A stretch of 62,611 nucleotides of DNA from Pseudomonadota bacterium. Lineage in GTDB: Bacteria; Pseudomonadota; Gammaproteobacteria; Competibacterales; Competibacteraceae. The notes beneath the pieces were generated by a model. It made no database searches. It worked only from the letters and a program-made list of their open reading frames with translations, and had not been told where the DNA came from. Positions 18,625-27,945 of this stretch are shown here, piece after piece. The translations under genes were made by a program, and so were the position numbers. The first letter of the stretch is position 1. Each line of letters starts with the position of its first letter. Location of the stretch: contig JAUPTV010000102.1 of assembly GCA_030917925.1 (NCBI GenBank), forward strand, positions 1 through 62,611. The letters are read 5' to 3'.

Positions 18625-18720
18625 GGGGATAACCTGGGGTTGCTTGGCCAGGCTTTTGCTGCACTGCAATATAAAACCGTGTATAGTCAGACCGCTTGTA
18701 GCCAGTGTTGTGGAGCGGTC

Positions 18721-19590
18721 ATGTCGAAACAGTACCCTATCATTGCCATTACGGGTTCCTCCGGGGCCGGCACCTCGACGGTGCGCGTGGCGATGGAACA
18801 CATTTTTCGGCGAGACGGGATTAATGCGGTCACCGTGGAAGGCGACAGCTTTCATCGCTATGACCGTTTCGAGATGCAGCAACAAGTGGAACAGGCGTTG
18901 CGGGATGGTCGCCATCTCAGCCATTTCGGACCCGAAGGCAACCTGTTTGACCGACTGGAGGCGCTGTTCATGGAGTACAGCGAGCACGGAACAGGATTAA
19001 GGCGCTACTATCTGCATGACCCGGAAGAAGCCCGATCCCGTGGCCGGGAACCGGGGATGTTCACACCCTGGACGCAACTTCCTTCAGGCACCGATCTGCT
19101 GTTTTACGAGGGTCTGCATGGCGGAATAGTCACTGATAAAGTGAATGTCGCCCGCTATGTGGATTTGCTGATTGGGGTCGTGCCGATTGTGAACTTGGAA
19201 TGGATTCAGAAAATTCATCGCGACACCGCCGAACGCGGCTACAGTCCGGAAGCCGTGACGGATAATATCCTGCGGCGGATGCACGATTACACGCATCACA
19301 TCGTGCCGCAATTCTCCCGCACGGACATCAACTTCCAGCGGGTGCCGACGGTTGATACTTCGGATCCCTTCGCTGCCCGCGACATTCCAACGCTGGATGA
19401 GAGTTTCGTGGTCATCCGCTTTCGGGAGCCGCGCAAGACTCAGCCGGATTTTACCTACCTCTTGCACATGATCCATGATTCCTTTATGTCGCGCCGCAAC
19501 ACGATTGTGGTGCCGGGCGGCAAGATGGGATTCGCCATGGAACTCATTTTGCAGCCACTGATCGAGCAACTCATTCGCCGGGAATATTAG
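18721..19590 (+). CDS. prkB: Phosphoribulokinase (PrkB/CbbP family)
   Basis: ATP-dependent kinase that converts ribulose 5-phosphate to ribulose 1,5-bisphosphate, a Calvin-cycle step. The 289-residue protein has the variant P-loop ITGSSGAGTST near residue 10, as in the proteobacterial class I enzymes. It also has VEGDSFHRYDRFE with the catalytic acidic residues, LFYEGLHGG and QFSRTDINFQRVPTVDTSDPF. The ATG at 18721 follows GGAGCGG; an in-frame opening at 18640 covers a promoter-like region (TATAAA at 18670). No RubisCO or other cbb gene is in the window, so whether it serves autotrophy or is an orphan PrkB as in E. coli cannot be decided here. Confidence 0.92.
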   Translation: MSKQYPIIAITGSSGAGTSTVRVAMEHIFRRDGINAVTVEGDSFHRYDRFEMQQQVEQALRDGRHLSHFGPEGNLFDRLEALFMEYSEHGTGLRRYYLHDPEEARSRGREPGMFTPWTQLPSGTDLLFYEGLHGGIVTDKVNVARYVDLLIGVVPIVNLEWIQKIHRDTAERGYSPEAVTDNILRRMHDYTHHIVPQFSRTDINFQRVPTVDTSDPFAARDIPTLDESFVVIRFREPRKTQPDFTYLLHMIHDSFMSRRNTIVVPGGKMGFAMELILQPLIEQLIRREY

Positions 19591-19675: not shown

Positions 19676-22639
19676 ATGCTTCAACCGCCTGCCCTCCAGT
19701 CGCTTTCCACTGCACTGATCCCGCCCGTGCGCCCACGGGTCCTGCCCTCTGCGCTGGCCGACCATTATCGGGTGCTGCGGGATTTGCGCGTTCAGAGTGC
19801 AGAAACAGATGTGCTGCTGGTGGAATCGCTGACCACACCAGGACAACGGGCGGTCGTCCGGCTTTATCATCCCGGCATTCAGCCCAAAAGCGAGATTTTT
19901 CGCTGGATCGGAACCGAGGTGCCGCATTACGTCGCACAATTGCTGGAATACGGTAGTTCGGATGGCGTTGGTTATGAGTTGCTGGAATATGCTGAGCACG
20001 GTTCATTGCGTGGGTGGATGGCGGCGGGAGCCTTGGCGGAGGTGGATGCCTGGGAATTGTTGACGGAACTCGGTGGAGCGCTGGCAGAATTACATGGACG
20101 CCATATTTTGCATGGCAATCTGAAACCGGAAAATATCCTGATCCGGCGTCGGCAACCGTTGCAACTGGCGCTCACCGATTTCAGCATCGCTTCCCTGGCG
20201 GAGACAATCCACGGTTTTACGGCAGGTCGCGCCGTGCCCTATATCGCTCCGGAAATGGCCACTGGTGTGGCAGGTATGGCAGCGGACTATTGGTCACTGG
20301 GTATGATCCTGCTCGAAGCTTTGACTGGTCAACGTCCCTTCGCCGGGTTATCGGGGATTGTGATTCGCTATCAATTGCGAGTGCGGCCAGTTCCAGTGGA
20401 TGAGGTGATGGAGCCGTGGCGAATGCTGTGTCGCGGCTTGTTGCTGCGCGATCCACCGCAGCGTTGGGGGGCTGCCGAGATTCGTCGCTGGCTGGCTGGC
20501 GAGCGCGAAGTGTGTTTGCCGGTGGATGCGCCACAGCCTGAAGCGGTCACCTTTCGCCCCGGACGCTTTTATCGCCTGGCCGGGGTCGAGTGTCGGTCGC
20601 CTCGCGAGTTGGCGACGCAAATGGCCAGTCATTGGGAGGAAGCCCGTGATGCGTTGACAAGGGGGACTCTCGGCGACTGGTTGCATGGTTTAGGGGAGCA
20701 AGCGGTGGGGCGAGCGGCGTTGGAAGTCCTGGACGCTGACGGTATGCCACTCGACGAGCGCCTAGTGCGGTTGCTGGCCCATCTGGCCCCGGATTTGCCA
20801 CCGAGGTGGAAGCAGTGGAGTTTAGCAGCTAATGATCTGGCGGCGGCAGCGCAAGCCGCCCGGGATGACGATGCCGCCAGCCGTGCGTTATTGCTGGAAC
20901 TGTATCAGGGGCAACCGGATGTGCTGGGCGTTTATGCCGCTGCCGGTAATGCCGAATGTCAGTGGTTGCAAGCGGCCTGGCGGTCGGCGGCGGCGGATTA
21001 CGAGCGCGTCTGGCAAACGGCGCGGGCCTACGGTCTGTCATTGGCGAAAGCGCCTCCCGACTGGGTGGCAATGCTGCCCGATCTGTTGCTGACGGTGACG
21101 TCACCGGTGTTTCAGAACCGGATTGAGATTGAAGTGCAAAGCCTGGCGCGGGAGGTGCATCCCCATCCCGCCTGGCTGGACAGCCTGCTGAATGCGGCTA
21201 GGCAGGGTGGCGGCGCACTGGCGTTGCGGACGATATTGCGCTGGTTGCCGACGGTTATCGAAATCCAGCAATACACGGCTCCCCGTCTGGAAGCGCTCTT
21301 GCAGGAGTTTGCCATTCTGCACCGCAGCCCGGATTTTATGGAGGCTCTGAACCGCTTCGATGAAAACCTGTGCGATGGGGTCTATGACAGTCCGCAAGCC
21401 GTGGCGCGGGCTATCGAGGGTTTACGGCGCGACGCCCAGGCGCTGGCGGAGGTCTTGCGGCAATACTATGCGCTGTCGGAACGGACCGCCGTCAATAGCG
21501 CCGCCAGCCTGGTCTTACAGCGCTGGCAACCGCGTCTGGCCGCCCCACGCTATGCGGATACGGATCGCTTGCGCCAGGAACTGGCGCAGCCACTGCGTTG
21601 GCGAATCAGCGTTGACGGCTGGGAACGACCTGCAGCTTCGGCATGGCGCTGGGAACACGAGAGTCTCTGCTTACCCGGCAAGTCCTCGGGTAAAGTGGTC
21701 GTGGCGTTCAGTCCGGATGGGCGGTGGCTGGTCAGTGGTGGCGGCGATCGGACGGTGCGACTATGGCGGATCGAGACGCAGCAGTGCATATCTACTCTGC
21801 AAGGACATAGCGGGAGTATCAGCGCGGTCGCGTTCAGTGCGGATGGGCGGTGGCTGGCCAGTAGCGGCGATCGCACGGTGCGACTGTGGCAGGTCAACAG
21901 CGGGCAGTGCAAGGCGACGTTACGAGGACATACCGGTATGGTGAGCGCGGTCGCGTTCAGTCCGGACGGGCGCTGGCTGGTCAGTAGCAGTGCGGATCGC
22001 ACATTACGGTTGTGGCGGGTCGATGGTGGGTTGTGCATGGCGACCTTGCAGGGACACACCGGTATTGTCAACGCGGTGGCGTTCAGTCCGGATGGGCAAT
22101 CATTGGCCAGCGGCAGCGCTGATCGCACCGTGCGATTGTGGCGAATTGAGGGTGGACAATGTGTCGCGGTGTTGCCGGGACGCACGGGACGAGTGACGTC
22201 CGTCGCCTTCAGTCCGGATGGGCGGTGGCTGGCCAGTGGCAGCGGGAGCTTTTCCGAGCGGCGATGCGATGATGACGCCGTGCGATTATGGCGAGTGGAG
22301 AACCGGCAATGTGTGGTGGCTTTTCCCGGCCATACCGGAAGTGTGAACGCGGTGACATTCAGCCCGGATGGACGATTGATAGCCAGTGGCAGCAGTGATC
22401 ATACGATTCGATTATGGCGGGTGGAGAACCGGCAGTGTGCGGCCACTTTGCCCGATCGGGGTGGGGAGGTGACTGGAGTGGCCTTCAGTCCCGATGGGCG
22501 GCGACTGGCCAGTGGTTGCGAAGACGGGTTGGTACTGTGGAATTGTCGTCAGATGACCACGGTTGAGATGACGCTCGACGAACTGATTGCCTGGGAGAAG
22601 GCGCGAGTCGGGCAATATAGCGCTATCCAGCAGGTTTAG
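19676..22639 (+). CDS. WD40 beta-propeller protein with degenerate serine/threonine kinase domain (predicted pseudokinase)
   Basis: A 987-residue protein with three parts. Residues 31-275 have a bacterial Ser/Thr kinase fold: HGNLKPENIL at 146-155, TDFSIAS at 167-173, APE at 191-193 and ADYWSLG at 203-209. All three catalytic hallmarks are changed: the beta-3 Lys is Arg62, the HRD Asp is Asn148, and DFG is DFS (168-170). No Gly-rich ATP loop is visible. Residues about 275-670 are an Ala/Leu-rich helical linker. Residues about 673-960 hold seven WD repeats with the pattern AFSPDGRWLASG-DRTVRLWR, enough for one seven-bladed propeller. There is no signal peptide or membrane helix, so the protein is probably cytoplasmic. 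A scaffold role is inferred; the partner is unknown. Confidence 0.85.
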   Translation: MLQPPALQSLSTALIPPVRPRVLPSALADHYRVLRDLRVQSAETDVLLVESLTTPGQRAVVRLYHPGIQPKSEIFRWIGTEVPHYVAQLLEYGSSDGVGYELLEYAEHGSLRGWMAAGALAEVDAWELLTELGGALAELHGRHILHGNLKPENILIRRRQPLQLALTDFSIASLAETIHGFTAGRAVPYIAPEMATGVAGMAADYWSLGMILLEALTGQRPFAGLSGIVIRYQLRVRPVPVDEVMEPWRMLCRGLLLRDPPQRWGAAEIRRWLAGEREVCLPVDAPQPEAVTFRPGRFYRLAGVECRSPRELATQMASHWEEARDALTRGTLGDWLHGLGEQAVGRAALEVLDADGMPLDERLVRLLAHLAPDLPPRWKQWSLAANDLAAAAQAARDDDAASRALLLELYQGQPDVLGVYAAAGNAECQWLQAAWRSAAADYERVWQTARAYGLSLAKAPPDWVAMLPDLLLTVTSPVFQNRIEIEVQSLAREVHPHPAWLDSLLNAARQGGGALALRTILRWLPTVIEIQQYTAPRLEALLQEFAILHRSPDFMEALNRFDENLCDGVYDSPQAVARAIEGLRRDAQALAEVLRQYYALSERTAVNSAASLVLQRWQPRLAAPRYADTDRLRQELAQPLRWRISVDGWERPAASAWRWEHESLCLPGKSSGKVVVAFSPDGRWLVSGGGDRTVRLWRIETQQCISTLQGHSGSISAVAFSADGRWLASSGDRTVRLWQVNSGQCKATLRGHTGMVSAVAFSPDGRWLVSSSADRTLRLWRVDGGLCMATLQGHTGIVNAVAFSPDGQSLASGSADRTVRLWRIEGGQCVAVLPGRTGRVTSVAFSPDGRWLASGSGSFSERRCDDDAVRLWRVENRQCVVAFPGHTGSVNAVTFSPDGRLIASGSSDHTIRLWRVENRQCAATLPDRGGEVTGVAFSPDGRRLASGCEDGLVLWNCRQMTTVEMTLDELIAWEKARVGQYSAIQQV

Positions 22640-22695
22640 AGGTATAGATGTCTGCCCAATCGGTTAACCTGAATGTCCAGAGAGAAGGAACGCCC

Positions 22696-23973
22696 ATGTC
22701 AACCCTGACCTTAATGACCCGCCTGCGTGAGGCGACTCGTGAGAGCCATGATCAACTGGAAACCCTGCCCTATTTTCAGGCGCTGGAGCGGGGTGAGTTG
22801 CCGATTGAGAGCTATGTGGGGCAACTGCGGGCCATGGCGGTGTTGCATGGCGTTTTGGAGCATGAATTGCCCAAGGCCGGGGACGAGCGCATGAATGCAG
22901 TCTGGCGGGAGAACCTGCGCCGTTTCCCGCAGATTCAGACCGATTTAGGCTTTTTCGCTTCCAAGGCCGTGCTGGATATTGCTACTGCTCACGAAGCCGC
23001 CTGCGCTCTCGCTGACCCTATTCTGCAGCGTTCGGTGGAGCAGCCAGTTTCCCTGCTCGGCTACCTCTATGTTCTGGAAGGTTCCATCGGCGGTGCCCAG
23101 GTGCTGGCTCCCCGATTTCGCCAGGTTTTCGGGTTGGATGAACGTCACGGTCTGGCCTATTTGAGTTGGGAGCCGACGGTGGCTCAGGAGCGCTGGCGGG
23201 CTTTTGGCGAACGGATGAACGCCGCGCCAGTGGATGCAGCGGAGAGTGCGGACATCATCGCAGCGGCTGAAGAAGCGTTTGCGGGTATTCAGGGACTGTT
23301 TGCGGCGCTGTATCCTTTTGAGACCGCGCAGTTGACCCGGAAGGCGACATCCCTGAATCCGGAAGCGGGCGCGCATCCGGTGCCGGAAGATCCGGGTGAA
23401 ATCGACGCCGCAATCCGCGCCGGTGAGCGGTGCTGGCAGGAATATCCCTATTTTGCCTGGCGCTACGGTGAACGGGGCTGGCGCTATACCCAAAGCGATG
23501 GCGCATGGCTGATTACGCTGACGACGCAGGATCAGGCGGTGATGGATGCTCAAGTGGCCTGGTTGAGCGGCGTACTCGGGGCGCGGGGGATGCCCAGTCG
23601 TTTGTTGCAGCGGCATCTGGAACTGCTTTATGAAGAGCTGATTGGGCGGATGCCGGAATCGGGTGAACGGCGCTATGGTCGGTTGCTGGCGGCCGCCGAC
23701 CGGTTGGCGGAACAGCGTCGGGCCGTGATTGCCGACGCGGATCTTGACATGATCAGCCGCCAGTTTGACCAGGCGGCCGGGCCGGATTGGCGGGCGCGAC
23801 TGCCGTGCATGGGCGCTTTACTCGTCTGTGCGGTGGCTGACCAGGCGCACGGCATCAAGCAGGCCGTGGCCAGTTTTCAAAGCTGGCTGGTCGATCCACA
23901 GCGTTTTCCGCCACACTGGATCGCCGCCGTTCACGAGGCGTTGCGCGAGGCCGAAGCCCGGCGGCGTGCCTGA
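22696..23973 (+). CDS. Heme-oxygenase-like protein with an unrecognised C-terminal domain
   Basis: Residues 1-210 match the biliverdin-producing heme oxygenase fold. REATRESHDQLE provides the probable proximal heme ligand His18, and LGYLYVLEGSIGGAQ at 121-135 is the distal-helix signature. Residues about 235-425 form a second helical domain (YPYFAWRYGERGWRYTQSD, then WLSGVLGARGMPSRLLQRHLE) that I do not recognise. Stand-alone heme oxygenases are about 190-230 residues, so this is roughly double length. The ATG at 22696 follows AGAAGGAA at good spacing; an ATG at 22648 would add 16 residues. It lies 56 bp after the pseudokinase gene and is probably co-transcribed with it. No phytochrome gene is nearby. 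Confidence 0.75.
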   Translation: MSTLTLMTRLREATRESHDQLETLPYFQALERGELPIESYVGQLRAMAVLHGVLEHELPKAGDERMNAVWRENLRRFPQIQTDLGFFASKAVLDIATAHEAACALADPILQRSVEQPVSLLGYLYVLEGSIGGAQVLAPRFRQVFGLDERHGLAYLSWEPTVAQERWRAFGERMNAAPVDAAESADIIAAAEEAFAGIQGLFAALYPFETAQLTRKATSLNPEAGAHPVPEDPGEIDAAIRAGERCWQEYPYFAWRYGERGWRYTQSDGAWLITLTTQDQAVMDAQVAWLSGVLGARGMPSRLLQRHLELLYEELIGRMPESGERRYGRLLAAADRLAEQRRAVIADADLDMISRQFDQAAGPDWRARLPCMGALLVCAVADQAHGIKQAVASFQSWLVDPQRFPPHWIAAVHEALREAEARRRA

Positions 23974-24012: not shown

Positions 24013-25245
24013 TCACTGAAGCCAATGATGGATCTGGTCATAGACTTCGCGACTGCTGAGCAGATCAAAGTGGTTCAATCCGTAACCGATGTGCTGGCGG
24101 GTCGCGGGAATCGGCAGCGTCAGCGCCGCGCGGTCATGCTGGCCAAGCGCACTGGCTACTGGGACCAGTCCATCACCTGGCAATCGCTGATGGGCAACGC
24201 CAGGTAGCGGTTGCTGCGTGGCCGCGATCATGAAACAGTGGACGCCTTCAGGTAGCGGGGTCGGCTTCCGTGGATCGTGGGGATGTTCGCTGCCGCGTTG
24301 TTCCCAATCCTCATCCAGGATATTGCCATAGCGCAGGTCTCTAACGCCGGCGCTGCGAATTTTGCCTAATCGGACGAACGGGGCGGTATAGGGGCTGATG
24401 CCCAGGATGATATTGACCCAGTTGCCCGCCCGCTCCAGTGGTGCGCCATGATGTGGCGTTCCCAGGCAGATGAGTTTTTTCAGGCTGGGCAGCCACGCAA
24501 GGCCCGCCTGCGCCGCATAGTGGCAAGCGCTGCGGGACACGAGTCCGCCCATACTGTGCCCGATGATGACCAGTTCGCTGATGGGAACCGGCCATTGCTG
24601 AACCAGTCGTTCCAGCAGATCCGCAAATTCCCGCCCGTTCGTGGAAATGTGCTGGCCGCTGTTGTAGTGCAAATAGAGCGCGGTGTATCCCAAATTCTGA
24701 GCGAGCGCTGCGCCGTGATCGTGCCCAGCGCGTCGCCATTCCAGATCGTTCAGGCACAGACCATGTACCAGCACCAGCAACTTGCTTCTAGCGTTTGTGA
24801 AGCGGGTCGCGAGCGCCTGGCGCTCCAGGATGAGCGGCTGTCCCTGCTGACGCAGGCGCATGGGAATCGCCAGTGGGTTGTGCGAGGCGACCAGATAATC
24901 GCCCAGGACGCCATTGATCGCGGCTAATAGCGCTTCGCGACGCGGCGAAAAACTGTGATGGTTGAGCAGCGAGGTGAGAGGCGCTAATGCCGCATCGAGT
25001 CCAAAACCGACGACCTTGGTAATGCCGCGAACGCTGCGATAGACCAGACCGGAGATGCCCCGCGCCCGGCCTGGCGGCGCGGCACCGACGATGGGAGAGA
25101 TACGGGCGATATTGCGATGCATCTCCTCCACAAGGTCGGTGACGCCGGTCACTGCGGTAATAATCAGCCGACTGACGCCGCGCAAATCCGCCGCCGCGCC
25201 GCCGCTGGTTCGGAGAGCCGGACTACTCCCGGCTTTACCGCTCAT
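24013..25245 (-). CDS. Alpha/beta hydrolase, PGAP1/lipase-like
   Basis: A 410-residue serine hydrolase. The nucleophile elbow is GHSMGG with Ser231, the oxyanion region is LVHGLCLND near 159-167, and the likely acid and base are in PGDGLVPVAS and NHFDLLSS near the C-terminus. The first 140 residues (many Val/Ile/Gly stretches such as VSRLIITAVTGVTDLVE) precede the hydrolase core and may associate with membrane. GTPHHGAPLERAGNW is typical of lipases of the PGAP1/triacylglycerol group. The start overlaps the stop of the transglutaminase-like gene by 4 bp, so the two are translationally coupled. The substrate is not evident. Confidence 0.8.
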   Translation of the reverse strand: MSGKAGSSPALRTSGGAAADLRGVSRLIITAVTGVTDLVEEMHRNIARISPIVGAAPPGRARGISGLVYRSVRGITKVVGFGLDAALAPLTSLLNHHSFSPRREALLAAINGVLGDYLVASHNPLAIPMRLRQQGQPLILERQALATRFTNARSKLLVLVHGLCLNDLEWRRAGHDHGAALAQNLGYTALYLHYNSGQHISTNGREFADLLERLVQQWPVPISELVIIGHSMGGLVSRSACHYAAQAGLAWLPSLKKLICLGTPHHGAPLERAGNWVNIILGISPYTAPFVRLGKIRSAGVRDLRYGNILDEDWEQRGSEHPHDPRKPTPLPEGVHCFMIAATQQPLPGVAHQRLPGDGLVPVASALGQHDRAALTLPIPATRQHIGYGLNHFDLLSSREVYDQIHHWLQ

Positions 25246-26075
25246 GGTGTCGCGGGAGAGGGTAGCCCACTGTTGACTTCATCGGTCCAGACTTTGAATT
25301 GGGTCAGCGTATTGGGGCCAAAGGTGTTGCTCAACGCGACATCAGCGGCATCACGACCTTGCGCGATGAGGACGCGGCCAATCCGTGGGACGTTATTGCG
25401 AGCATCAAAGGTATACCAATGACCGCCCAGGTAGGCTTCAAACCAGGCGGCGAAATCCATGGGGCCGTAGGGCGGCGGCATCCCCATATCGCCCAGATAG
25501 CCGGTGCAGTAGCGGGCGGGAATATTCAGGCACCGGCAGAATGCAACAGCGAGATGGGCATAATCACGGCAAACACCGGTCTTTTCGTGGAACACTTCCC
25601 AGGCAGTGCGGGTGGCGCGGGCATGTTCGTAACCGAAGGTGATGTGGTGATGGACGAAATCACAGATGGCCTGAACGCGCCCCCAGCCGGTGGGCGAATG
25701 GCCGAACAAATCCCACGCGGTTTGGGAAAGTCGATCCGTTTCGCAATAGCGACTCCCCAACAGGAACATCAGGGTCTCATTGGGCAGGTCTTGCACCGCG
25801 TGTTGCGGGGCCAAGGGGGCAACGACGTCGGCTACGCCCGAATCATTTACCAACGCATCGGTGGACAACCGAATCTGGCCCTTTGGCGCCACAATCCGGC
25901 TGCACCAGTTGCCAAAGCCATCGCGATAGGCAGTGATCGGCACCGGAGGATGGGTGATGAGGTGGTCAGGAACGAGAATATCGGAGACGCGAGTAAAATG
26001 GATGCTGAGCGTCAGGATCATCGGCGTCGGTTGCGGACAGTCGTAGATCAATTCGTAGCCAACCCGGATTTGCAT
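25242..26075 (-). CDS. Transglutaminase-like cysteine protease-fold protein
   Basis: A 277-residue protein with an N-terminal beta-sandwich region (1-110) and a transglutaminase-like core. The probable nucleophile is Cys169 in TGVCRDYAHLAVAFCR and the probable Asp is Asp224 in WYTFDARNN. The His usually found in a HAW motif is replaced here: the segment reads MDFAAWFEAYLGG, with Ala209 at that position. Some subfamilies of bacterial transglutaminase-like proteins share this form, so it may be an ordinary variant rather than decay. It is the first gene of a two-gene operon with the lipase-like hydrolase and diverges from the RNA ligase gene. Confidence 0.8.
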   Translation of the reverse strand: MQIRVGYELIYDCPQPTPMILTLSIHFTRVSDILVPDHLITHPPVPITAYRDGFGNWCSRIVAPKGQIRLSTDALVNDSGVADVVAPLAPQHAVQDLPNETLMFLLGSRYCETDRLSQTAWDLFGHSPTGWGRVQAICDFVHHHITFGYEHARATRTAWEVFHEKTGVCRDYAHLAVAFCRCLNIPARYCTGYLGDMGMPPPYGPMDFAAWFEAYLGGHWYTFDARNNVPRIGRVLIAQGRDAADVALSNTFGPNTLTQFKVWTDEVNSGLPSPATP

Positions 26076-26195: not shown

Positions 26196-26843
26196 ATGGA
26201 ATATCCAAAAATCGAAACACTTTATGATCGCGATGAAAAAAATCACAAAGTTATCGTGACAAAAACCCGGTTGCCAGAGTTTGAAAATATCAAACATTGG
26301 CGAGTGACGGAAAAAATTGATGGGACTAATATTCGTATCATTTTATCATCAGGGAGTTCTCTACAATTTCGCGGACGCACCGATAATGCGCAAATGCCAG
26401 CGCCACTCCTGGCCTATTTGGAAGCGACCTTGACGCTTGAAAAAATGCAGTCCGCTTTTCCTCGGGTGGTCAATAGTCCAGTCATTCTGTTCGGCGAAGG
26501 CTATGGAGAAAAAATTCAGAATGGCGGCAATTATCGCAAAGGCGTTTCCTTTCGGTTATTTGATGTGGTTGTTGATCAATGGTGGCTGGAACCGGCGAAT
26601 GTTGAAGATATTGCCGGGAAGCTTGGAATTCAGATCGCACCTGTTTTACCACCGATTGATGCATTGCCAACCTGCTCGACTGATCTCGCCGGGATTCTCG
26701 GGCATGACGGCAAAAGCCCTACCGCTATTGCCGAGGGTGGGGCCGGTTGCCGCGCTGAAGGGATTGTGGCCCGAACGAGTCCTTTATTACTGACTCGACG
26801 GGGTGATCGACTGATGTGGAAACTCAAGTTCCGGGATTTTTAA
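26196..26843 (+). CDS. RNA ligase family protein (T4 Rnl2-like nucleotidyltransferase)
   Basis: A 215-residue ATP-dependent ligase-type nucleotidyltransferase. All core motifs are visible: motif I EKIDGTNIRI with the adenylated Lys40, motif III FRLFDV at 119-124, motif IV AEGIVAR at 187-193 and motif V MWKLKFRDF at 207-215, which ends the protein. There is no C-terminal accessory domain, as in minimal members of the Rnl2-like family. Such enzymes seal nicked or broken RNA, but the natural substrate here is unknown. The first 300 bp are clearly more AT-rich than neighbouring genes, suggesting acquisition. GAGGG precedes the ATG at 26196. The stop codon overlaps the convergent reductase gene. 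Confidence 0.82.
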   Translation: MEYPKIETLYDRDEKNHKVIVTKTRLPEFENIKHWRVTEKIDGTNIRIILSSGSSLQFRGRTDNAQMPAPLLAYLEATLTLEKMQSAFPRVVNSPVILFGEGYGEKIQNGGNYRKGVSFRLFDVVVDQWWLEPANVEDIAGKLGIQIAPVLPPIDALPTCSTDLAGILGHDGKSPTAIAEGGAGCRAEGIVARTSPLLLTRRGDRLMWKLKFRDF

Positions 26844-27802
26844 CCGGTCGATTTTTCAGCGACGCGCAGGATAATTTTGCCTCGTGCATGGCCGCCCTGA
26901 CTGATGGCGTGGGCCTGACGGAATTCATGAAGCGGCAGGATGGTGTGAATCAGTGGCTTCATCCGGCCCGCATCAACCAACTCGGCGATAGCGGTCAACT
27001 GCTGGCCGCTGGGTTGAACGAACACGAAAGCGCTGCGGACGCCGTGTTCGGCAGCAATAATTTTCGATGGCGGACTGACGATGGACACCAGGATGCCGCC
27101 GGGTTTTAACACCGACCAGGAACGCTCCTGCGTATCGCCGCCCATCGTGTCGAACACCACATCCACGTCTTTCACGACCGCTTCGAAACGGGTTTGGGTG
27201 TAGTCGATAAACTGATCAGCCCCCAGTGCCGTGACCAGCCCGGTATTGACTGCTGAGGCGGTAGCGATCACTCGTGCCCCACGCGCCTTGGCCAGTTGCA
27301 CCGCCAGACTGCCAACACCGCCGGCGGCTGCATGAATCAGCACCGTCTGGCCAGCCTGCAATTGGGCAGCATCGACCAGCGCCTGCCAGGCGGTCAGCGC
27401 AGCCAATGGCACGGCGGCGGCGTGCAGGTGATCCAGGGTTGCTGGCTTGAGGGCGACTTCGCTGGCCTTGACGGCAATGTATTCGGCATAAGCGCCGTCG
27501 CGTTCGATGTCGGGACGGGCATACACTTCGTCACCCACCTTGAAGCCATGGGCTTCTGGACCAACCTCGACCACTTCGCCGGAAACATCCCAACCGAGTG
27601 TGAGGGGCAGGGTGTGATGGAGATCGCCTTGCAGCCAGCCCTCGCGGATTTTCCAGTCCACCGGATTGACCGTCGCCGCCTGCACCTGGATGAGGAGATC
27701 ATCCGGTTTGAGGGCGGGGCGGGGCGCGTTTTCCTCATAATGCAGCATTTCAAGACCACCGTAGGCGTGAATACGGACGGCTTTCATGGTAGGCGACGTC
27801 AT
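26840..27802 (-). CDS. Medium-chain NADP-dependent oxidoreductase (zinc-free quinone reductase type)
   Basis: A 320-residue MDR-superfamily protein of the quinone-oxidoreductase/zeta-crystallin group. It begins MTSPTMKAVRIHAYGG, has the catalytic-domain segment TVNPVDWKIREG, and the Rossmann motif AAAGGVGSLAVQLAKARGA near residue 150 for NADPH. The Cys/His ligands of zinc alcohol dehydrogenases are absent. The start at 27802 follows GGAG by 8 nt; a TTG 18 nt upstream has no ribosome site. The gene converges with the RNA ligase gene, both stop codons sharing a TTAA. Confidence 0.88.
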   Translation of the reverse strand: MTSPTMKAVRIHAYGGLEMLHYEENAPRPALKPDDLLIQVQAATVNPVDWKIREGWLQGDLHHTLPLTLGWDVSGEVVEVGPEAHGFKVGDEVYARPDIERDGAYAEYIAVKASEVALKPATLDHLHAAAVPLAALTAWQALVDAAQLQAGQTVLIHAAAGGVGSLAVQLAKARGARVIATASAVNTGLVTALGADQFIDYTQTRFEAVVKDVDVVFDTMGGDTQERSWSVLKPGGILVSIVSPPSKIIAAEHGVRSAFVFVQPSGQQLTAIAELVDAGRMKPLIHTILPLHEFRQAHAISQGGHARGKIILRVAEKSTG

Positions 27803-27945
27803 GGAAAATTCTCCAGGCAAATTAAGGTTCGAGATTCGCAGTCATCGGCATTAAGGAGCAACCGGCGGCTAGACAGTTCCCGCTTAGGGCTAGTATTCAG
27901 TATGATCAACCACATTGCTCAATAGACAACGCAGGGGGAAAGACG

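Follow-up and report, generated by a model that had tools for sequence, protein, structure and literature searches.

A WD40-fused kinase-like protein in a Competibacteraceae genome: a probable pseudokinase whose orthologues carry differing catalytic lesions

We analyzed a stretch of 62,611 nucleotides (62.6 kb; here called the window) from a Ca. Competibacteraceae genome of 4.2 Mb in 299 contigs, focusing on a long open reading frame whose product joins a kinase-like domain, a helical middle domain and a WD40 propeller (Table 1). On its 5' side lie complex I genes followed by a phosphoribulokinase gene, and on its 3' side a gene for a heme-oxygenase-domain protein begins 8 bases past the stop codon. 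The heme oxygenase domain of that neighbor takes up residues 21 to 213 and is followed by ∼200 residues without a Pfam match. Further downstream, overlapping genes on the minus strand (24013 to 26075) encode a PGAP1-like alpha/beta hydrolase and a transglutaminase-like protein. The two flanking genes were considered as conserved operon partners and rejected on the evidence of the orthologue loci (Table 1). The sole neighbor found near the gene both here and in another genome with an orthologue (G004) encodes a zinc-type alcohol dehydrogenase (26840 to 27820), and upstream of the orthologues in G001, G003 and G004 lies a gene that, from its translation, we take to be cobA. Across the window and the orthologue loci, we found no conserved neighbor that would indicate a partner of the protein.

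Table 1. Features of the locus, in window coordinates
Feature	Position	Strand	Remarks
Phosphoribulokinase (PRK15453 type), upstream neighbor	18640..19590	+	Absent beside orthologues; not a family partner
Predicted pseudokinase-helical domain-WD40 protein, open reading frame	19676..22639	+	987 aa; near full-length orthologues at 57-69% identity
Kinase-fold domain, residues 26-275	19751..20500	+	Pfam PF00069, E 2.1e-22 (domain alone); AlphaFold2 pLDDT 90.4, pTM 0.89
Degenerate P-loop and beta-1/2 (RDLRVQSAETDVLLVE), no glycine	19778..19825	+	Residue 41 Ser; Gly in all intact relatives
Arg62 (CGG) in place of beta-3 Lys	19859..19861	+	Alignment
Glu73, alpha-C Glu, kept	19892..19894	+	Alpha-C of model; 10-residue spacing to xHVV strand as in generic kinases
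Catalytic loop HGNLKPENIL: Arg147 to Gly, Asp148 to Asn; Lys150 and Asn153 kept	20111..20140	+	Alignment
DFS: metal Asp168 kept, Gly170 to Ser	20177..20185	+	Alignment
Scaffold markers APE (191-193) and DYWSLG (204-209), kept	20246..20302	+	P192, E193, D204, W206 and G209 invariant in family
Helical middle domain, residues about 285-660	20528..21655	+	No convincing Pfam match; nearly confined to Competibacteraceae
Seven WD40 repeats, residues 673-959	21692..22552	+	Pfam PF00400, 7 stretches
C-terminal motif VEMTLDELIAWEKxxxGQYSxIQ after propeller	22562..22630	+	Common to orthologues and intact WD40 relative L014
Heme-oxygenase-domain protein, 441 aa, downstream neighbor	22648..23973	+	Not conserved beside orthologues

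The N-terminal domain is predicted with confidence to adopt a kinase fold, as an earlier note made from the sequence alone had proposed, and the best matches of the model in the PDB are protein kinases (among them ULK1, CDPK and PknB, with TM scores of about 0.7 to 0.77). This model was built from an alignment of 46 sequences, comprising the window protein, 18 family members and 27 generic kinases from related genomes, and it replaced a model from 17 sequences with a poor C-lobe (pLDDT 66). The same alignment bore out the retention of the fold markers KPEN, APE and DYWSLG, and Arg263 is kept as well. The helices of the middle domain reach pLDDT values of about 85 to 92 over much of the domain in the 17-sequence model, and its homology extends over about 228 positions (match to profile A1 with E 5e-101, the window sequence being part of the profile). 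The seven WD40 repeats named in the earlier note were recovered both by Pfam and as blades read by eye, at residues 673-714, 715-755, 756-797, 798-839, 840-889, 890-931 and 932-959. The motif that follows the propeller is kept, as EMTLDELIAWEKxxxGQYSxIQ, in WD40 members with decayed and with intact kinase domains.

Alignment placed the counterpart of the HRD motif at His146-Gly147-Asn148 and that of DFG at Asp168-Phe169-Ser170, and all three substitutions first noticed in the sequence (Arg62, Asn148 and DFS) held. The earlier note took them to mean that every residue of the catalytic triad was gone; this is right for the beta-3 Lys and the HRD Asp, but not for the DFG Asp that binds metal, which remains as Asp168. 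Lesions beyond those on its list affect the P-loop glycine (the stretch RVQSAETD contains none), the HRD Arg147, and the activation-segment residues Thr181 and Thr186, which have become Phe and Ala. The protein therefore combines the two marks of a pseudokinase, a kinase fold and the loss of at least one triad residue (here K62R and D148N). A displaced catalytic residue, which would have spoken against the note's proposal, was not seen, neither a Lys in the P-loop or beta-2 nor an Asp. K71, the sole Lys close by, occurs as a rule across the family, intact members included, and is thus not compensatory. In the same way, the short alpha-C is no sign of decay, since it occurs in the whole family and also in its intact members; the assignment of Glu73 within it follows from spacing and from its position in the model, the MAFFT gap there being ambiguous.

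Among the 27 generic kinases, K62 and G170 are identical in 100% and R147 and D148 in 96% each, and the near-universal presence of K62, D148 and G170 argues that their replacements in the window protein are not chance variants. Sequencing error was rejected as the general source of the lesions, because two or more base changes separate the Arg62 codon CGG from any Lys codon and Asn148 is common to orthologues of 68 to 69% identity. Within the subclade of the window protein, R62 and S170 were seen in the window genome only, and S170 (AGC) taken alone, one base from Gly and present in one genome, could be such an error. Given that Asp168 is kept, some nucleotide or metal binding could persist, and binding is predicted to be weakened rather than abolished.

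To place the protein among its relatives, we searched 59 related genomes and found strong matches in 15 of them, some covering the propeller only. A profile of the middle domain matched in 13 of 39 Competibacteraceae genomes and nowhere beyond the Competibacteraceae in 369 genomes of the class. We rejected a wider distribution of the family, since the ∼660 class and phylum genomes yielded a single weak match outside the Competibacteraceae (E 4e-6, among 299 phylum genomes). The family is found almost only in the Competibacteraceae. The window genome itself holds a further kinase gene (L008, 1519 to 2427, on contig C239) whose match is broken by one TAG codon. C-termini vary behind the core of kinase and middle domains, including WD40 propellers, leucine-rich repeats, Lcl_C domains and further helices. 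The proteins L034 and L014, for example, are 95% identical in their kinase domains and 46% in the middle region and have different C-termini, which looks like an exchange of sensor domains. A diversity-generating retroelement acting on the Lcl_C relatives was considered and rejected, as the window genome has neither a reverse transcriptase nor a second Lcl_C 3' end. Membership in a defense system was likewise discarded: the PADLOC and NCBIfam matches (MAD6 and PD-T4-6) reflect mainly the kinase fold and fall far below the given cutoffs, the MADS kinase MAD6 matching the kinase domain only, with 70 bits against an NCBIfam equivalog cutoff of 460 bits.

Family members that keep the K/HRD/DFG residues share two further features. 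The first is a tail at the N-terminus in which the TxxD motif occurs three times (for example as ATVRD, ATRRD and ATIRD), found in 10 of 11 intact members (9 of the 10 aligned ones and the kinase fragment L031). The exception, L020 (1474 to 2745, genome G029), lacks the tail; in its place, part of the zinc ribbon known from the cluster's FHA protein is joined to the front of the intact kinase, and the frame ends soon after the kinase. The second feature is a gene cluster: at intact loci with enough flanking sequence, the kinase is accompanied by a double-zinc-ribbon FHA gene, a radical SAM gene, a gene for an AAA protein resembling ClpB and one whose product begins MSGPKCYRY (MSGPK protein). 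This arrangement is seen, for instance, at L036 (2471 to 11684), L037, L038, L041, L044 and L045, often together with a protein resembling DUF559. Tandem kinase copies within the cluster have near-identical kinase domains and different C-termini (WD40, leucine-rich repeat, Lcl_C or helical). We found no described system that matches this cluster. pTxxD is a known form of FHA ligand, according to a title cited in PMC3146460, and we infer that the triple-TxxD tail is a likely docking site for the FHA protein, phosphorylated by the intact kinase that bears it. The window genome has such an intact paralogue (L002, contig C49) with tail and FHA cluster, as do G003 and G019.

A tree built from the kinase and middle domains, without most of the catalytic columns, unites nine WD40-fused proteins, that of the window among them, in one clade with 100/100 support. 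Three genera are represented, g1 (G000, the window genome, with G001, G003 and G004), g5 (G019 and G028) and g9 (G013, G032 and G035), and the proteins group by genus, which fits mostly vertical descent. Each of the nine carries damage to at least one catalytic position, in differing combinations. Next to the window protein, with K62R, R147G, D148N and G170S, stand L009 (D148N and D168G), L016 (D148N, K150Q and D168H), L011 (E73A and R147C), L013 (E73A and D148N), L012 and L015 (both K62R, R147G and K150R), L017 (K62R only) and L010, which among core residues has D148N only. Of these, the mildly damaged L017, L011 and L010 may still be active. The earlier note had stated that bacterial kinase-WD40 fusions normally keep an active kinase; within this family that applies, by sequence, to L014 and L023 and fails for all nine clade members.

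Parsimony required 13 changes, distributed over seven catalytic positions (K62, 2; E73, 1; R147, 3; D148, 2; K150, 2; D168, 2; G170, 1). Every one of them falls inside the WD40 clade and none among the intact proteins, suggesting that the clade ancestor was probably canonical. The K62R of the window protein probably arose independently of that in L012, L015 and L017. No TxxD tail was found in the clade, the N-terminus of L013 being cut off, and no FHA, radical SAM, AAA or MSGPK gene was found at the clade loci, several of which have short flanks, or in the whole window. The window protein thus lacks both features, tail and cluster, that define the FHA-linked branch. The tail difference amounts to one change on the tree, which fits gain as well as loss. 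As tail and cluster differ on a single branch, their link with catalytic decay comes down to one event.

Pairwise dN/dS values within the clade are low throughout (kinase domain, 0.11 to 0.24; middle domain, 0.08 to 0.20; propeller, 0.10 to 0.21), with dS often above 1, so that the values for those pairs are rough. Of 38 columns conserved both in the intact family and in generic kinases, 6 of the 9 catalytic ones changed in the clade versus 6 of the other 29 (Fisher's exact test, p 0.016). Four of the six changed noncatalytic columns lie in the activation segment (171, 172, 181 and 186), and the other two changes are mild (L47V and S207A); P192, E193, D204, G209, R263, H140 and P151 never change. 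In the larger set of 130 columns invariant in intact kinases, there was no significant catalytic excess (7/10 versus 58/120, p 0.32). The pattern indicates that the kinase fold is kept while the catalytic chemistry is lost. As for the propeller, the blade 5 insertion SGSFSERR is kept in L009, L010, L011 and L013 and varied in L012, and the mean internal identity of the blades is 54 to 62% in the clade versus 73 to 84% in intact WD40 relatives, a count in which the repeat pattern missed some blades. Such blade-specific features, kept across genera, may hint at a fixed ligand in the clade.

Our preferred reading, to which we assign a probability of roughly two in three, is that the window protein is a noncatalytic, VPS15-like pseudokinase scaffold that arose from a WD40-fused family kinase apart from the cluster, losing catalysis while its fold stayed under selection. 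The ancestral kinase would have stood apart from the cluster of zinc-ribbon FHA, radical SAM, ClpB-like AAA and MSGPK genes, have lacked the triple-TxxD tail and have been passed down mostly vertically in the three genera. Relaxed selection on catalysis would then have led to loss of the beta-3 Lys, HRD Arg and Asp, KPEN Lys, DFG and activation threonines in varied combinations, with fold, helical domain and propeller remaining under purifying selection. In such a protein the propeller would bind a partner, the helical domain would set the geometry, and the kinase-fold module would dock another protein or report nucleotide allosterically, with no phosphotransfer. The lesions, the clade, the absence of tail and cluster and the selection can be read from the aligned sequences; on top of these, the reading supposes that tail and cluster were lost here rather than gained elsewhere, that the protein would not transfer phosphate, and that its role would be one of binding. 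The central idea of the earlier note, a fold-intact pseudokinase with a propeller that probably binds, accordingly finds backing in the structure model, the conservation among orthologues, the purifying selection and the concentration of lesions in catalytic columns. A wider account, in which a kinase released from a lineage-specific cluster with exchangeable sensors lost its phospho-tail and its catalysis and became a free-standing VPS15-like scaffold retained in three genera, the nine orthologues being intermediate stages, is more tentative and falls somewhat short of an even chance.

The protein may retain some nucleotide binding or weak activity, given that Asp168, Glu73, Lys150 and Asn153 remain and that Arg could partly replace Lys62. 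Taken further, the protein might be a weak or unusual kinase in which an Arg62-Glu73 pair forms, Asp168 and Asn153 hold the metal and Asn148 supports slow phosphotransfer; HER3, of the HRN type, is known for slow phosphotransfer, and D148N is the sole core departure of L010. We consider such a kinase unlikely, as P-loop Gly, beta-3 Lys, HRD Arg and Asp, DFG Gly and Thr181/Thr186 are all gone together and the same positions vary in sister proteins, two of which (L009 and L016) have lost even the DFG Asp. This freedom to vary argues that activity is not what selection keeps. The protein could also act as an allosteric partner or dominant-negative form of an intact paralogue such as L002, bound through the kinase fold, and the three genomes with both genes would allow it. 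Six others (G001, G004, G013, G028, G032 and G035) carry the clade, and neither an FHA or MSGPK gene nor an intact family kinase was found in them, some of them being incomplete and G001 having one further short fragment. Acting on the paralogue or through FHA therefore cannot be the general role, which makes this improbable as an explanation; contact with an intact paralogue could be confined to G000, G003 and G019. Finally, that a former kinase is drifting functionless toward loss would suit the accumulating lesions and the patchy spread (9 of 39 family genomes), yet it is very improbable in view of full-length open frames across genus-level divergence, kinase dN/dS values similar to those of the other two domains and untouched structural columns.

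The noncatalytic scaffold of our preferred reading can be compared with several known systems. Closest are the intact family kinases (such as L002, L014, L023, L025 and L030), up to about 60% identical, with the same fold, short alpha-C and middle domain and, in L014 and L023, the same WD40 C-terminus; they keep K/HRD/DFG and mostly the tail and the FHA, radical SAM, AAA and MSGPK neighbors, all of which the window protein lacks. Bacterial pseudokinases have been little studied experimentally, and their route of origin is seldom visible. What appears new here is a lineage-specific pseudokinase-helical-WD40 protein with intact relatives, missing partners and a stepwise decay that can be read directly. 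Closely related genomes make the order of leaving partners, losing catalysis and keeping the fold testable, and the nine orthologues, with one to several lesions each, would, if the reading is true, form a natural series that records how a pseudokinase is born in bacteria.

Seven families of bacterial pseudokinases have been described (ActPs1-3, GLW, CP1, DYD and DLHK; O'Boyle et al. 2025, PMC12599244), and, like the window protein, their members are Ser/Thr pseudokinases whose motifs are degraded; WD40 is not named anywhere in the text of that review. Its CP1 proteins, which occur in proteobacteria, display a mixture of single and multiple lesions and are without exception fused to the ATPase domain COG3899, whereas a Pfam scan of the middle part of the window protein gave no ATPase domain. 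The membrane-linked GLW proteins have GLW in place of HRD (PMC12599244), where the window protein has HGN. Fusions of kinases to WD40 propellers are common in cyanobacteria and planctomycetes (PMC5587647), and PkwA of Thermomonospora curvata by its description combines a kinase domain with a WD40 propeller, as the window protein does (PMC6113231, PMC1262709). Inactive kinases related to propeller-fused ones have been reported in conflict systems (PMC7159879). Among eukaryotic proteins, plant SPA1 and SPA2 resemble the window protein in domain layout, with a kinase-like domain, a coiled coil instead of the helical domain, and WD40 repeats; they have a binding function, with the E3 ligase COP1 as partner (PMC4957354). 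VPS15 is a pseudokinase that lacks GxGxxG and is built of kinase, helical, linker and WD40 parts, and it serves as a scaffold and regulator of VPS34 (PMC6358306). It differs from the window protein in being eukaryotic, about 1350 aa long and myristoylated and in binding the lipid kinase VPS34 and RAB5. The likeness is architectural, one of fold types, and it covers both the order of pseudokinase, helical and WD40 parts and the missing GxGxxG, so that the window protein presents the layout of VPS15 in a bacterium.
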